The notes beneath the pieces were generated by a model. That model did not search any database. It saw nothing but the letters and a program-made list of their open reading frames with translations, and was not told the origin of the DNA. 64,000 nt of DNA from Marinovum algicola (GTDB taxonomy: Bacteria; Pseudomonadota; Alphaproteobacteria; Rhodobacterales; Rhodobacteraceae): the NCBI RefSeq assembly GCF_900109145.1, contig NZ_FNYY01000001.1:124001-188000 (forward strand). The letters run 5' to 3'. Shown one piece after another: positions 16,419 to 21,732 of this stretch (the stretch's first letter is position 1; each line of letters begins with the position of its first letter). Both the position numbers and the translations under genes were made by a program.

Positions 16419-17990
16419 TCAGCCAAGCTCCTTGTAGCTGATTTCGCGCGCATCGGCGCCGGGGCCGAGCTTTTCACGCCGCACCAGAAGCCGGTTCAGG
16501 GCCTGCACATAGGCCTTGACCGAGGCCACCACCGTATCGGTATCGGCCGACTGGCCGGTGGCGATCATGCCATCCTCTTCCAGCCGGACCGAAACCGTGG
16601 CCTGGGCATCGGTGCCCTCGGTGACCGCATGCACCTGGTAAAGCTGAAGCCGCGCGGTGTTGGGGTGCAGGTCGCGCACCGCCTTGAAGGCGGCATCGAC
16701 CGGGCCGTCGCCCTGGCAGGTCGCGGAGTGTTCCGTGCCGCCGATCTCCATCTCGATCGTCGCTTCCGCCGGGCCGCCGGTGCCGCAGACGACCTTGAGG
16801 TTGACCAGTTGCAACTGATCGGCATTGCCTTCGGTGGTGGCCGAGACCAGCGCCAGGATATCGTCGTCAAAGACCTCTTTCTTGCGGTCGGCGAGCTCCT
16901 TGAACCGCACAAAGATGTCCTTGAGCTGGTTGTCGCCCACGTCGACCCCCAGTTCCTTGAGCTTGGCGCGCAAGGCGGCGCGGCCCGAGTGCTTGCCAAG
17001 CGGCAGCGAGGTGCCCGAAAGGCCCACATCCTCTGGGCGCATGATCTCGAAGGTCTCGGCGTTCTTGAGCATGCCGTCCTGGTGGATGCCGCTCTCATGG
17101 GCAAAGGCGTTCTTGCCCACGATGGCCTTGTTGAACTGGACGTTGAAGCCCGAGACGGTGGCGACACGGCGCGAGATATGCATGATCTTGCGGCTGTCGA
17201 TGCCGGTCTGGAACGGCATGATGTCATTCCTGACCTTCATCGCCATGACAACTTCTTCCAGCGCGGTATTGCCGGCGCGTTCGCCCAGCCCGTTGATCGT
17301 GCATTCGATCTGACGCGCCCCGGCCTCGACCGCGGCCAGCGAATTGGCCGTCGCCATGCCAAGATCGTTGTGGCAATGCGTGGCAAAGACCACCTCGTCG
17401 GCGCCGGGCACCGTCTCGATCAGCCGGCGGATCAGCTCGGCGCTTTCGCGCGGCGCGGTATAGCCCACGGTGTCGGGGATGTTGATCGTGGTGGCGCCGG
17501 CCTTGATGGCGATCTCGATCACACGGCAGAGGTAATCCCACTCGGTGCGCGTCGCATCCATCGGCGACCACTGCACATTGTCGGTCAGGTTGCGGGCATG
17601 GCTCACCGTCTGCTCGATGCGCTCGGCCATTTCATCCATCGACAGGTTGGGAATGGCGCGGTGCAGCGGCGAGGTGCCGATAAAGGTGTGGATACGCGGC
17701 CGGGCGGCCTGTTTCACCGCTTCGAAACAGCGGTCGATGTCGGGCAGCTGCGCCCGGGCGAGGCCGCAGATCACCGCGTTTTTCGAGCGCTGGGCGATCT
17801 CCGAAACAGCGGCGAAATCGCCTTCGGAGGCGATCGGAAAGCCGGCCTCGATGATGTCGACGCCCATATCGTCGAGCAGTTCGGCAATCTCGAGCTTTTC
17901 CGAATGGGTCATCGTCGCGCCGGGGCTCTGCTCGCCATCGCGAAGGGTCGTGTCGAAGATCAACACGCGGTTTCTGTCTGTCTGGGTCAT
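16419..17990 (-). CDS. leuA: 2-Isopropylmalate synthase
   Basis: Condenses acetyl-CoA with 2-oxoisovalerate, the first committed step of leucine synthesis. 523 residues, the long bacterial form. The catalytic TIM barrel has FDTTLRDGEQSPG near the N-terminus and the metal-binding THCHNDLGMATAN; it is followed by the linker (HESGIHQDG) and the C-terminal allosteric LeuA dimer domain (about 400-520) that binds leucine. I chose the ATG at 17990; a GTG two codons upstream is possible. A leader peptide with four consecutive leucine codons precedes it, indicating control by leucyl-tRNA supply in addition to enzyme feedback. Confidence 0.97.
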   Translation of the reverse strand: MTQTDRNRVLIFDTTLRDGEQSPGATMTHSEKLEIAELLDDMGVDIIEAGFPIASEGDFAAVSEIAQRSKNAVICGLARAQLPDIDRCFEAVKQAARPRIHTFIGTSPLHRAIPNLSMDEMAERIEQTVSHARNLTDNVQWSPMDATRTEWDYLCRVIEIAIKAGATTINIPDTVGYTAPRESAELIRRLIETVPGADEVVFATHCHNDLGMATANSLAAVEAGARQIECTINGLGERAGNTALEEVVMAMKVRNDIMPFQTGIDSRKIMHISRRVATVSGFNVQFNKAIVGKNAFAHESGIHQDGMLKNAETFEIMRPEDVGLSGTSLPLGKHSGRAALRAKLKELGVDVGDNQLKDIFVRFKELADRKKEVFDDDILALVSATTEGNADQLQLVNLKVVCGTGGPAEATIEMEIGGTEHSATCQGDGPVDAAFKAVRDLHPNTARLQLYQVHAVTEGTDAQATVSVRLEEDGMIATGQSADTDTVVASVKAYVQALNRLLVRREKLGPGADAREISYKELG

Positions 17991-18039
17991 GGTCACGTCT
18001 CTTGAAAATCTTCTCCGGGGTTCGGGCGCGAACGGGCCT

Positions 18040-18075
18040 CCTCTGAGCGGTCGCGCCTGACGGCACGCTCAGAGG
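18040..18075 (-). promoter_or_regulatory. Competing hairpins of the leuA leader
   Basis: A 10-bp perfect inverted repeat pairs 18066-18075 (covering the leader stop codon) with 18040-18049. A second 7-bp stem pairs 18051-18057 with 18025-18031 and encloses 18040-18049. The two stems cannot form together in nested fashion, the arrangement expected of an attenuator. The second stem lacks a U-run directly after it (the nearest, GATTTTC, is about 15 nt on), so the mode of control is uncertain. Confidence 0.6.
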
Positions 18076-18155
18076 CGGATTAGGAGAAGCAGGCCGCGCG
18101 ACAGCGCCGCGCCGGGGGCGCGGGACAGGGTCGGGATATGGCCTCGGGTCAACAT
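18069..18155 (-). CDS. leuL: leuA leader peptide
   Basis: 28 codons starting MLTRGH and ending SRGLLLLIRL. The run is CTG CTT CTC CTA ATC CGC CTC TGA: four adjacent Leu codons using four different codons including CTA, which is rare in this GC-rich genome, then Ile, Arg, Leu and stop. It lies 79 bp before leuA. This matches the leucine attenuation leaders known from proteobacterial leu genes. No ribosome binding site precedes the ATG, and the likely start of transcription falls at or next to it. Confidence 0.8.
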   Translation of the reverse strand: MLTRGHIPTLSRAPGAALSRGLLLLIRL

Positions 18156-18161
18156 GAGGCG

Positions 18162-18189
18162 ACTATACGCGGGTGTTTCCGAATGAAAA
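18162..18189 (-). promoter_or_regulatory. Probable leuA promoter
   Basis: On the minus strand TTTTCA (18189-18184) and TATAGT (18167-18162) are separated by 16 bp. A transcript starting seven bases after TATAGT would begin at the A of the leader ATG (18155), making the leader peptide leaderless. Confidence 0.45.
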
Positions 18190-18338
18190 GTGTCTTTTTG
18201 CCGGGTTTGGCGGGCCGGGCGGCCTATTTTGCCCGCCGAGGACGGACAAAATGCGCTCACGCGTGCCGTTGATCGGCGCGACCGCGGGAATTGGCGGCGC
18301 TCCGGAGTTCGAGCAGACGGCCCCGGAGGCGCAGCGGA

Positions 18339-19796
18339 TCACTCTGCGGTGGGCGCGTCCGGTGTGTCCTCGGCGCTCTCTTCTGCCGCAGGCTCCGGCT
18401 CGTCCGCCTGCATCAAGGCGCCGTTCTTCCATTCGCCGCTGGCCTCCTGACCGGCGGCATACCGCATGGTGCCCTCGCCCTGGCGCTTGCCGGCCACGAA
18501 GGTGCCCTCGTAGACATCGCCATTGGCATAGGTCGCCACGCCCTCGCCGGAGATCTCGCCGTTCTTCCAGTCGCCGATGTATTTGAAGCCGTCGGGCATC
18601 GAGATCTCGCCTTCACCGTGGCGCTGGCCGTCTTCGAACTGGCCGATATAGACCGTGCCGTCGGGATAGGTTGCGGTGCCCTTGCCATGCCGCCGGCCGC
18701 GTTCCCATTCGCCTTCGTAGCGGTAGCCGTCGGCATAGGTCATCACGCCGTAGCCATGGTTGCGCGCGTTCTGGAAGCCGCCTTCATAGACCAGGCCGTT
18801 GGGATAGGTGGCCCGGCCCTCGCCCTCGATCACGCCATCGACCCACTGGCCCTCGTAGGTGGAACCGTCGGGATAGGTGATATTGCCCTGGCCATGCGCC
18901 AGATCGTTGCGGAACTGGCCGACATAGATCGAGCCGTCGGGATAGGTCACGGTGCCCACGCCCTGGATCTTGCCGTCCTGCCAGTCGCCTTCGTAGCGAT
19001 AGCCGTCCTCACCGGTGAACACGCCCTTGCCGTTGCGCTGGTCGTCGCGGAAGCTGCCTTCGTAGACGTCGCCATTGGCATAGGTCACCCGGCCCTGGCC
19101 CTCGCGGCGGCCGGCCACCAGCTCGCCTTCGTAGATATCGCCGTTGGGCTGGATCAGCTTGCCTTCGCCCGAGATCTGGCCTTCGCGCCAGAGCCCCTCG
19201 TAGATCAGCCCGTCGATCATCACCAGTTTGCCCTGGCCGTCGCGCTGCCCGTCCGAGACCCGGCCCTCGTAGGTCGAGCCGTCGGGATAGGAGATTGTGG
19301 CATTGCCTTCCTTGACGCCATTGACCCAGTCGCCGTCGTAGACATAGCCGCCGGGGCTGGTCATCACGCCGCGCCCGTGGTGCATGGCGTTGCGGAAACT
19401 GCCCTCGTAGCGCACGCCATTGGCATAGATCGCCACGCCCTGGCCGGTGATCTCGCCATCGGCCCATGTGCCTTCATAGGTGCCGCCGTCGGTAAAGGTG
19501 ATCTTGCCCACCCCATGCGGCTTGCCCTTGGCAAACTCACCTTCATAGATCGACCCGTTGGGAAAGCGCGCCACGCCTTTGCCCTTGATCTCGCCCGCCA
19601 CCCATTCGCCTCGGTATTCATAGCCGTTGGGCAGCCGGTAGCTGCCTTCGCCATGCTGAAGCCCGTCGCGGAAGGTGCCTTCGTAGACGCCGCCGTCGTC
19701 ATATTGCTTGGTCAGCACCTCGCCATCCTGTGACAGGGCCGGCAAGGCGGCCAGAAGTGCCAGTGTCACGCCTGCGATGCGGATGGATTGCTTCAT
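18339..19796 (-). CDS. Secreted MORN-repeat protein
   Basis: 485 residues: a signal peptide (about 1-22, MKQSIRIAGVTLALLAALPA), then 18 tandem 23-residue MORN units from about residue 34 to 445, and an acidic Glu/Asp/Ala/Pro tail. Each unit follows the pattern YEG-x-(F/W)-x-x-G-x-x-x-G-x-G-x-x-x-Y-x-(N/D)-G. The fifth position alternates between a non-Trp residue (mostly Phe) and Trp in successive units, giving a 46-residue super-repeat that slips once at units 9/10. Bacterial MORN proteins are linked to envelope or membrane association, but no precise role can be given. Start ATG 19796 is fixed by the signal peptide; it is divergent from nadE. Confidence 0.9.
   Translation of the reverse strand: MKQSIRIAGVTLALLAALPALSQDGEVLTKQYDDGGVYEGTFRDGLQHGEGSYRLPNGYEYRGEWVAGEIKGKGVARFPNGSIYEGEFAKGKPHGVGKITFTDGGTYEGTWADGEITGQGVAIYANGVRYEGSFRNAMHHGRGVMTSPGGYVYDGDWVNGVKEGNATISYPDGSTYEGRVSDGQRDGQGKLVMIDGLIYEGLWREGQISGEGKLIQPNGDIYEGELVAGRREGQGRVTYANGDVYEGSFRDDQRNGKGVFTGEDGYRYEGDWQDGKIQGVGTVTYPDGSIYVGQFRNDLAHGQGNITYPDGSTYEGQWVDGVIEGEGRATYPNGLVYEGGFQNARNHGYGVMTYADGYRYEGEWERGRRHGKGTATYPDGTVYIGQFEDGQRHGEGEISMPDGFKYIGDWKNGEISGEGVATYANGDVYEGTFVAGKRQGEGTMRYAAGQEASGEWKNGALMQADEPEPAAEESAEDTPDAPTAE
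18402..19700 (-). repeat. 69-bp tandem repeat array encoding MORN units
   Basis: The coding repeats of the MORN gene. Recurrent plus-strand blocks such as CCGTCGGGATAGG and CCTTCGTAG recur at about 69-bp spacing. It is protein-coding throughout, with sequence divergence between units. Confidence 0.85.
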
Positions 19797-20073
19797 GTGG
19801 CCCCACTTGCCCCCGGTCTGTCCTTTCCGAGGACGGTAATGGAGCAGGCCAGTGCAGACAATGCCTTTTGATCGCAGGCGGTTGATCTGACGGGTTTGTT
19901 CACGAAGTGGTGGCCGACGTGCCAGCGGGCCGCCACCGCAGCGGCGCCCGAAGTTTGCGCGTTCGCGCCGGTGGCAGAGCGCTGCGGGCGGTTTTGCTGG
20001 GGTCCGGCGGTAGCAGGTCTTTTCCCTGCCGGTCGATCTGGTAAGGGAAGGCATGACACCGAAGGGGCAGGAC

Positions 20074-21732
20074 ATGGCCGACACATTCCGCATCACGCTG
20101 GCACAGCTCAACCCGACCGTGGGCGATATCGCCGGCAATGCCGCGCTGGCGCGCGATGCCTGGGCGGCGGGCAAATCCGCGGGCGCCGATCTGGTGGCCT
20201 TCCCCGAGATGTTCATCACCGGCTACAATGCGCAGGATCTGGTGATGAAGCCGGCCTTTCACACCGCCGCCATCGAGGCCGTGAGGGCGCTGGCGCGGGA
20301 TTGCGCCGATGGGCCGGCCATCGCCATGGGCGCGCCCTGGGTCGAGGGCGCTGAGCTCTTCAACGCCTATCTGATTTGCAAGGGCGGCGAGATCGTCGCC
20401 ACCCAGCTCAAGCATCATCTGCCCAACGAGACGGTGTTCGACGAAAAGCGGATCTTTGACACCGGGCCCATGGGCGGGCCTTATGCGCTGGGGCCGATCC
20501 GCATCGGCAGCCCGATCTGCGAGGACGCCTGGTATCCGGATGTGGCCGAGACCCATGCCGAGACCGGTGCCGAGTTTCTGCTGGTGCCCAATGGCTCGCC
20601 CTATTACCGCGGCAAATTCGATGTGCGGCTGAGCCATGCGGTGGGCCGGGTGGTCGAGACCGGGCTGCCGCTGATCTATCTCAACTGTGTCGGCGGGCAG
20701 GACGATCAGGTCTTCGACGGTGGCACCTTCGGGATCAACCCGCATGGCGAGATTGCGTTTCAGATGCCGGTATTCGAGGCCGGTCTGGCACATGTCGATC
20801 TTGCGCGTGGGGCGGACGGCTGGCGCATCGTGCCGGCCGAGGTGGCGCAGCATCCGGGCGAATGGGAGCAGGATTACTATTGCATGGTGCTGGCGCTGCG
20901 CGACTATCTGCGCAAGACCGGCTTCAAGAAGGTGCTGCTGGGGCTGTCGGGCGGCATCGACTCGGCGCTGGTGGCGACCATCGCGGCGGATGCCCTGGGG
21001 CCGGAGAACGTGCGCTGCGTGATGCTGCCGTCGGAATATACCTCGCAGGCCTCGCTCGACGATGCCAAGGCGCTGGCCGAACGGCTGGGCTGCCGCTACG
21101 ATTTCGTGCCGATCACCGAGGGGCGGACGGCGATCACCAACACGCTGGCGCCGCTCTTCGAAGGCACGGAAGCGGGGCTGACCGAGGAAAACATCCAGTC
21201 GCGGCTGCGCGGGCTGCTGCTGATGGCCCTTTCGAACAAGTTCGGCGAGATGCTGCTGACGACCGGCAACAAATCCGAGGTCGCGGTGGGCTATGCCACG
21301 ATCTATGGCGACATGGCGGGCGGCTACAACCCGATCAAGGATCTCTACAAGACCCGGGTGTTCGAGCAATGCCGCTGGCGCAACGCCAACCACCGCGACT
21401 GGATGAAGGGGCCCGGGGCCGCGGTCATCCCGGTGTCGATCATCGACAAGCCGCCCTCGGCCGAGCTGCGCGCGGACCAGAAGGACAGCGATTCGCTGCC
21501 CGATTACCCCGAGCTCGACGCGCTGCTGACGATCCTTGTCGATCAGGACGGTTCGATCGAGGATTGCGTCGCGGCGGGGTTTGACCGGGCCACGGCCAAG
21601 AAGGTGGAGCACCTGCTCTATATCAGTGAATACAAGCGGTTCCAGGCGGCGCCGGGCACGCGGCTGAGCAAACGTGCCTTCTGGCTCGATCGGCGCTATC
21701 CGGTGGTCAACGGCTGGCGCGACCCGTCGTAA
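20074..21732 (+). CDS. nadE: Glutamine-dependent NAD+ synthetase
   Basis: Makes NAD+ from nicotinate adenine dinucleotide, ATP and glutamine. 552 residues with two domains. The N-terminal nitrilase-type glutaminase (about 1-260) shows its Glu in FPEMFITGYN, Lys in FDEKRIFD and Cys in SPICEDAWYPD. The C-terminal synthetase has the P-loop LSGGIDSAL and STTGNK-like LLTTGNKSEV. I prefer the ATG at 20074, where family similarity begins (MADTFRITLAQLNP), with AGGGGCAGG upstream; an in-frame ATG at 20053 also has a fair ribosome site. It is convergent with the SGNH gene, 18 bp away. Confidence 0.96.
   Translation: MADTFRITLAQLNPTVGDIAGNAALARDAWAAGKSAGADLVAFPEMFITGYNAQDLVMKPAFHTAAIEAVRALARDCADGPAIAMGAPWVEGAELFNAYLICKGGEIVATQLKHHLPNETVFDEKRIFDTGPMGGPYALGPIRIGSPICEDAWYPDVAETHAETGAEFLLVPNGSPYYRGKFDVRLSHAVGRVVETGLPLIYLNCVGGQDDQVFDGGTFGINPHGEIAFQMPVFEAGLAHVDLARGADGWRIVPAEVAQHPGEWEQDYYCMVLALRDYLRKTGFKKVLLGLSGGIDSALVATIAADALGPENVRCVMLPSEYTSQASLDDAKALAERLGCRYDFVPITEGRTAITNTLAPLFEGTEAGLTEENIQSRLRGLLLMALSNKFGEMLLTTGNKSEVAVGYATIYGDMAGGYNPIKDLYKTRVFEQCRWRNANHRDWMKGPGAAVIPVSIIDKPPSAELRADQKDSDSLPDYPELDALLTILVDQDGSIEDCVAAGFDRATAKKVEHLLYISEYKRFQAAPGTRLSKRAFWLDRRYPVVNGWRDPS

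Follow-up and report, generated by a model that had tools for sequence, protein, structure and literature searches.

The leu operon of enterobacteria is preceded by an attenuator in which a leader with Leu codons is followed by a classical U-run terminator, represented in Rfam as Leu_leader. For actinobacterial leuA genes, passages of Seliverstov et al. (2005; PMC1262725) describe a LEU element made up of a Leu leader, a pseudoknot and an alternative hairpin, with a base stem that pairs the Leu codons with the Shine-Dalgarno (SD) sequence. The same passages judge attenuation unlikely for this element and favor a protein ligand, citing leader changes in Streptomyces that did not fit classical attenuation. 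In Streptomyces lividans, portions of PMC8079986 present LeuL1 (MRFGLLLLSCRGEGL) as a leaderless peptide of 15 residues that contains LLLLSC, lies upstream of leuA and has no typical Rho-independent terminator. Among Alphaproteobacteria, excerpts of PMC7298713 and PMC10117765 report for trpL/rnTrpL of Sinorhizobium meliloti that the leader transcript begins with its ATG. We found no description of the element reported here in Alphaproteobacteria in what was mainly the open literature; Vitreschak et al. (2004), on attenuators of Proteobacteria, or a 2010 comparative survey in Mol Biol could contain one.

In the window, by which we mean the whole analyzed stretch of 64,000 nucleotides from Marinovum algicola, the minus strand carries a promoter, a leader, a set of complementary helices and leuA. 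The leuA gene (16419..17990) encodes a 2-isopropylmalate synthase with the Pfam domains HMGL-like, HCS_D2 and LeuA_dimer; its ATG is at 17990, and translation might instead begin at a GTG at 17996. The leader ORF, here named leuL (18069..18155), translates to the 28-codon peptide MLTRGHIPTLSRAPGAALSRGLLLLIRL, the tail of which is conserved in relatives. An earlier note on this DNA had described such a frame just upstream of leuA, using CTG, CTT, CTC and CTA, and our translation agrees in every respect; the close spacing likewise stands, while the distance of 79 bp is corrected to 78 nt between the stop TGA (18071-18069) and the leuA ATG. The four control codons (codons 22-25, 18081..18092, read from the leader translation) run from CTG at 18092-18090 to CTA at 18083-18081. 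CTA is indeed rare, as had been proposed, with 6 of 1422 Leu codons (CTT, 105 of 1422) in 38 long, GC3-rich ORFs of the window chosen by length and GC3 alone.

A promoter consensus scan of 17700-18400 found one site, against a shuffle mean of 0.0. Its -10 box, TATAGT (18162..18167), already seen near the leader ATG in the earlier reading, ends 6 nt upstream of that ATG and, together with a -35-like hexamer, TTTTCA (18184..18189), gives 9 of 12 consensus matches at a spacer of 16. The scan of this interval returned no minus-strand promoter downstream of 18155, which is weak evidence on where the transcript starts. Because of the promoter spacing and the missing SD, the leaderless start suggested previously fits the locus; it is a fit and not a proof, the 5' end being placed from sequence, and we regard the leuL transcript as probably leaderless. 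The interval 17700-18400 holds no minus-strand intrinsic terminator site, and neither the 10-bp nor the 7-bp stem described below has a U-run after it in the window. The leader RNA (166 nt) is predicted to fold more stably than every one of 200 shuffles (z = -2.71). A single good copy of the element is present in the genome, since the next match of a model built from the window's relatives (see below) is only at E 1.03; the leader DNA also matches elsewhere in the genome (L002) over 32 bases, in an apparent coding region that looks like hisG by eye, and this was rejected as chance. The gene upstream of the leader region (18339-20219, minus strand) encodes a protein with many YEG/GxG repeats, which appear MORN-like by eye.

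The RNA of this locus offers three helices and one alternative pairing. Specifically, X (18066..18075), a 5' arm that holds the leader stop UGA and is supported by complementarity, fold and conservation, forms a perfect 10-bp stem with its 3' arm Z (18040..18049; complementarity and conservation), and Y (GGCGCGA, 18051..18057), placed by alignment, forms a perfect 7-bp stem with W (UCGCGCC, 18025..18031). Both pairings had been noticed before and are exact; the accompanying claim that they are mutually exclusive hairpins is not supported in that form, because the stems share no arm. They are not nested, yet they are able to coexist as an H-type pseudoknot: Y sits in the X:Z loop, and the pseudoknot loops would be 8, 1 and 8 nt. 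The real competitor of Y:W is an upper stem, found by folding, in which a 5' arm at 18062..18066 pairs with 18053-18057 and so uses the same Y arm. A further helix, which the earlier reading missed and which we consider the best candidate for the switch, joins R1 (CUUCUCC, within the Leu codons, 18083..18089) to R4 (GGAGAAG, 18010..18016, 19 nt upstream of the leuA ATG); its 7 bp are present in the window's minimum-energy fold, and its two arms covary.

The family set comprised the best 80 of at least 577 LeuA relatives among genome contigs, which together with the window gave 81 loci. With fixed limits, an initial ORF search recovered a Leu-rich leader at 62 of the 81 loci (window included), and a strict motif recovered the stem at 73; anchoring on the stop codon inside X parsed the element at all 81 leuA loci, every one of which has a leader frame ending inside X. 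A Leu codon lies four from the stop at each of them (CTA 46, CTT 33, CTG 2). X pairs with Z at 10 of 10 positions in 75 loci, at 8-9 in five and at 6 in one. Y:W stems of 5 bp or more were counted at all 81 loci, a count that has no chance control and in which W is misplaced in L068, where the automatic W was replaced by a W end set by hand for the alignment. Of the cells in that alignment, the rows of which are related to one another, 98.5% are paired for X:Z and 96.0% for Y:W, against 30-55% in slid controls (a chance control that includes Y:W). Two-sided changes occupy 34 cells (shuffled mean, 13.6) and occur at 5 pairs against 2.6 in shuffles; two pairs of Y:W show such changes. At the outermost (seventh) pair of Y:W, 51 rows have letters, and only 35 of them form a standard pair. 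The upper stem is paired in 97.7% of cells, with variation that is one-sided only and no two-sided change. By sequence comparison, the region capable of forming the pseudoknot, with its X:Z and Y:W pairing, is thus conserved, and conservation of the Leu run and stems among aligned leaders, on which the earlier note had made its proposal depend, was found at 81 of 81 loci. A covariance model of these loci matches 192 of 198 genomes of the window's family and gave no match in the other six (G407, G413, G417, G472, G529 and G554).

The promoter geometry recurs in these relatives. A -10 box with 5 or 6 of 6 matches precedes 38 of 80 leaders, compared with 0.5% of 5865 control ATGs, a comparison that favors the leaders, for which the in-frame ATG with the best -10 was taken as the start; the box most often ends 7 nt upstream of the ATG. 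Under a strict position rule, 19 of the 80 leaders have a -10 score of 0, and one of the 81 loci is without an ATG in the stretch examined. An SD-like 4-mer lies upstream of the leader ATG in 2 of 80 loci; the missing leader SD is a weak sign, because even the first gene's start is preceded by one at just 27 of 79 loci. In the 10 nt after Z, T-runs reach no more than 3 in 80 of the 81 loci and 4 in the remaining one, and no T-run above 4 occurs within 10 nt after Z or W at any of the 81, in keeping with the earlier suggestion that, for want of a U-run, control may not be by classical termination.

For the R1:R4 helix, R1 of each family locus was tested against the 70 nt following W. The mean duplex energy is -11.77 with a locus's own partner, whereas re-dealing the partners gives -9.58 (sd 0.25; 0 of 20000); for a control stretch immediately upstream in the leader, the two values are -11.88 and -11.58 (608 of 5000). 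The shift of the mean persists with one locus per distinct R1 (73 loci, 0 of 5000). For individual loci, R1 has its single best partner in its own R4 in just 1 of 81, and at most four other partners surpass the own R4 in 16 of 81. Examples of R1/R4 pairs in the family are UCCUUAGC/GCUAAGGA, UCCUAAGCC/GGCUUAGGA, CUACUAAGC/GCUUAGUAG, CUUCUCC/GGAGAAG and UGCUGCUG/CAGCAGCA. A helix of at least 5 bp lies upstream of the first gene in 75 of 79 family loci, L010 and L016 having been left out of the position test. The R4 end is 13-28 nt from the start codon in 60 of these 75 loci, so that R4 is mostly not the SD; it is 18-21 nt away in 33 and within 11 nt in 13. Five loci (L017, L027, L041, L047 and L065) carry a cupin gene between leader and leuA, and in all of these except L041, R4 lies 5-8 nt upstream of the cupin start. 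The cupin-like protein, identified with Pfam Cupin_2 for L017 alone, is conserved, has 117-118 amino acids and is encoded 15-60 nt upstream of the leuA match.

Outside the family, the family model matches 32 of 385 genomes of the class, and 27 of 29 class loci obtained with it precede leuA; each of these 27 has a Leu-containing frame whose stop falls inside X when a start codon is not required. On the 35 rows of a class model, X:Z is paired in 98.9% of cells, a value biased upward because the Z arms of 26 rows were picked by complementarity, and two-sided changes occur at 7 of 10 pairs. This wider model matches 118 of the 385 class genomes, including some that had contributed training rows. 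Among 46 of its matches outside the training set, 20 of them drawn from the 22 lowest-scoring rows and three (L152, L153 and L160) being near-identical congeners, 44 have leuA downstream on the same strand; the other two (L163 and L165) have no leuA nearby. In three, the best match is to a Duffyella-type LeuA (labelled TIGR00970) and not to the window's type, which we take to be TIGR00973. In a sample of the phylum, 53 of 299 genomes match, 52 of them from this class and the other one at E 0.0099.

The R1:R4 pairing extends to the class. From 69 loci, which include some used for model building, 67 had leuA and 62 could be parsed; their mean R1:R4 duplex energy is -15.56, against -12.06 (sd 0.37) for re-dealt partners (0 of 5000), and the covariation persists with one locus per distinct R1 (59 loci). 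Where the helix score is at least 5, the R4 end lies 5-11 nt from the start in 18 of 56 loci and 27-34 nt in 16 of 56, so that overlap of R4 with the SD is a minority arrangement in the class too. The leader stops of the 62 loci are TGA (52), TAG (6) and TAA (4); at the position four codons from the stop, 59 have CTT and three CTA. The codon before this last Leu is Arg CGA in 39 of the 62, so that most of the 62 are without a Leu run, and leucine sensing is less plain outside the family for this reason. Class tails such as those of L119, L129 and L183 read LRL[IST]RP before the stop, or similar. It is as if the class tail were constrained more by RNA pairing than by the peptide.

Taken together, we consider that the element is probably a leucine-starvation switch. 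We cautiously favor leucine-dependent ribosome attenuation that uses no intrinsic terminator, acts probably on translation and proceeds from a probably leaderless leader. The transcript would begin at or near the leader AUG, and a ribosome would translate leuL. With ample leucine, the ribosome would clear the Leu codons, terminate at the UGA in X and depart, whereupon X:Z would re-form and Y would pair with W, as a pseudoknot, or within the upper stem; the freed R1 could then pair with R4, closing the RNA just upstream of leuA and lowering its translation. When Leu-tRNA is short, the ribosome would stall at the Leu codons, the last of which is the rare CUA in the window, and would keep R1 and part of X open, leaving R4 free and LeuA made. 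The stall, leucine as its signal and translation rather than transcription as its output are steps that we infer.

A folding test in which 29 nt, the footprint of a ribosome, were masked at one site after another, using nested folding that ignores the pseudoknot, bears on the last of these steps. In the class (n = 62), the leuA start region (-15..+2) is predicted to be unpaired at 0.401 in the free RNA and at 0.490 with the ribosome on the control codons, that is, with its A site 12 nt upstream of X (p 2e-6). The corresponding values with the ribosome 6 and 12 nt past the start of X are 0.413 and 0.395, and no rise is seen when the ribosome sits 48-72 nt ahead of X or beyond the stop. Release of the leuA start by a stall is thereby supported in the class relatives, as far as this model goes. 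Across 73 family loci (eight whose leuA is over 160 nt distant were excluded), the start region (-18..+5) shows no predicted rise; it is 0.591 free, with a largest rise of 0.026 (p 0.079) and one fall of 0.016 (p 0.006), and the 13 loci with R4 within 11 nt reach only p = 0.048. In the window's own RNA, the start region is predicted to be 0.77 unpaired when free, and placing the ribosome on the Leu codons lowers this to about 0.6; the modeled folding there speaks against a simple unmasking of the leuA start. R4 itself is predicted to open from 0.12 to about 0.51 under the stall mask (75 family loci), as is expected given that its partner R1 is masked. Folding does not explain how R4 would be linked to leuA in the window's family, a link that we infer.

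This difficulty lends some weight to the possibility that the same leader and helices control transcription, with a closed structure, or the untranslated stretch after it, allowing termination by Rho or another factor and a stall preventing it. The family R4 is mostly not at the SD, no start unmasking by a stall is predicted there, and passages of PMC1262725 suggest Rho for terminator-less cys leaders of actinobacteria. Nevertheless, we hold this unlikely: the U-run is absent, R4 occupies the SD position in 18 of 56 class loci, and the predicted freeing of class start regions would be superfluous in a purely transcriptional device. It is improbable that the RNA is a protein-binding element in which the leader peptide is secondary, as passages of PMC1262725 proposed for the LEU element. 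Such an element would suit the strong conservation of X, the upper stem and Y, as well as the Streptomyces work cited there, which misfits classical attenuation; it would leave unaccounted for the frame that ends inside X at all 81 family loci and, with no start codon required, at 27 of 29 class loci, and a last Leu codon in the family that is nearly always CTA or CTT. Very improbable, in our estimation, is a constitutive device whose leader and folds set transcript stability or leuA reinitiation with no sensing of leucine; the 39 of 62 class tails that have CGA before the last Leu and no Leu run would be in line with it, but the Leu codon four from the stop at 81 of 81 loci and the linkage to leuA point to leucine sensing. 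Chance, for which only the GC-rich sequence speaks, can be dismissed, as the conservation of pairing, the fold stability relative to shuffles, the presence in 192 of 198 genomes and the leuA linkage in 44 of 46 matches refute a short ORF and stems without function.

Leucine-dependent attenuation on translation, our preferred reading, can also be set against leaders of the Actinobacteria. Inspection by eye shows a Leu leader and then a GC-rich hairpin at four actinobacterial leuA loci; CUUCUUAGCUGCC occurs at the Leu codons in two of these. The family model matches the leader of Nonomuraea at 27.4 bits (E 6e-5) and that of Microbacterium at E 0.022, and the class model matches Microbacterium at 19.7 bits (E 6e-4) and Nonomuraea at 16.8 bits (E 0.0036), so that two of the four leaders match at E<0.01, these being rough E-values for about 30 kb. 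Neither model matches the leaders of Tsukamurella and Nocardia, and no Leu leader was seen at the Streptomyces locus (L089). Common descent with the actinobacterial LEU element is possible. More specifically, we raise as a doubtful, tentative idea that a single ancient switch is common to Alphaproteobacteria and Actinobacteria, that the control codons of its leaderless leader serve as the anti-Shine-Dalgarno of leuA, and that it stayed at leuA through a change of LeuA type and a cupin insertion. The first actinobacterial locus considered, another from Nonomuraea (L085), was rejected; the LeuA query matched a gene there, presumably citramalate synthase, and the region has another leader. Some 155 to 55 nt upstream of its match start (1501), that locus has a short frame ending in MFYGLLIIGRRAG, then a hairpin and a T-run, an arrangement resembling a classical attenuator.

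Compared with the enterobacterial leu attenuator, the window has the Leu leader in common and lacks both the U-run terminator and the Rfam match. Among the features of a classical attenuator, control codons for the amino acid produced are present, and the terminator hairpin with its U-run is absent. A search of Rfam 15 with window positions 17700-18500 at E<=10 gave only three unrelated sub-threshold matches, and 20 relatives gave no match at E<=0.1; the element is a likely regulator, and a small ORF can now be annotated ahead of leuA in many genomes left unmatched by Rfam 15 in this search. In Campylobacter jejuni, LeuL as described in portions of PMC3847290 resembles leuL in its 28 amino acids, in the rare Leu codons at its end and in its place before leuABCD, and differs in that its RNAs end shortly past the stop and transcription termination is proposed. 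The S. meliloti trpL, as portrayed in excerpts of PMC7298713 and PMC10117765, is likewise an alphaproteobacterial leader peptide whose transcript starts at the ATG, as is predicted here; it is, however, a tryptophan leader of trpE(G) in which transcription attenuation yields an sRNA, whereas the window is without a U-run terminator. LeuL1 of S. lividans, according to the portions of PMC8079986 cited above, shares with leuL the character of a probably leaderless Leu leader of leuA; it is actinobacterial and shorter, and those portions describe no structure for it. The LEU element, as far as the passages of PMC1262725 describe it, has the same run of Leu codons, possible pseudoknot, base stem and absence of a terminator, but its X and Y sequences differ, and the window's R4 lies 19 nt upstream of leuA and is not the SD. 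Because its base stem misses the SD, the window's element is best regarded as a variant that would work like the LEU element and not as a member of it, and this alphaproteobacterial counterpart would provide a direct and genetically easy test of control-codon attenuation for LEU-type elements.
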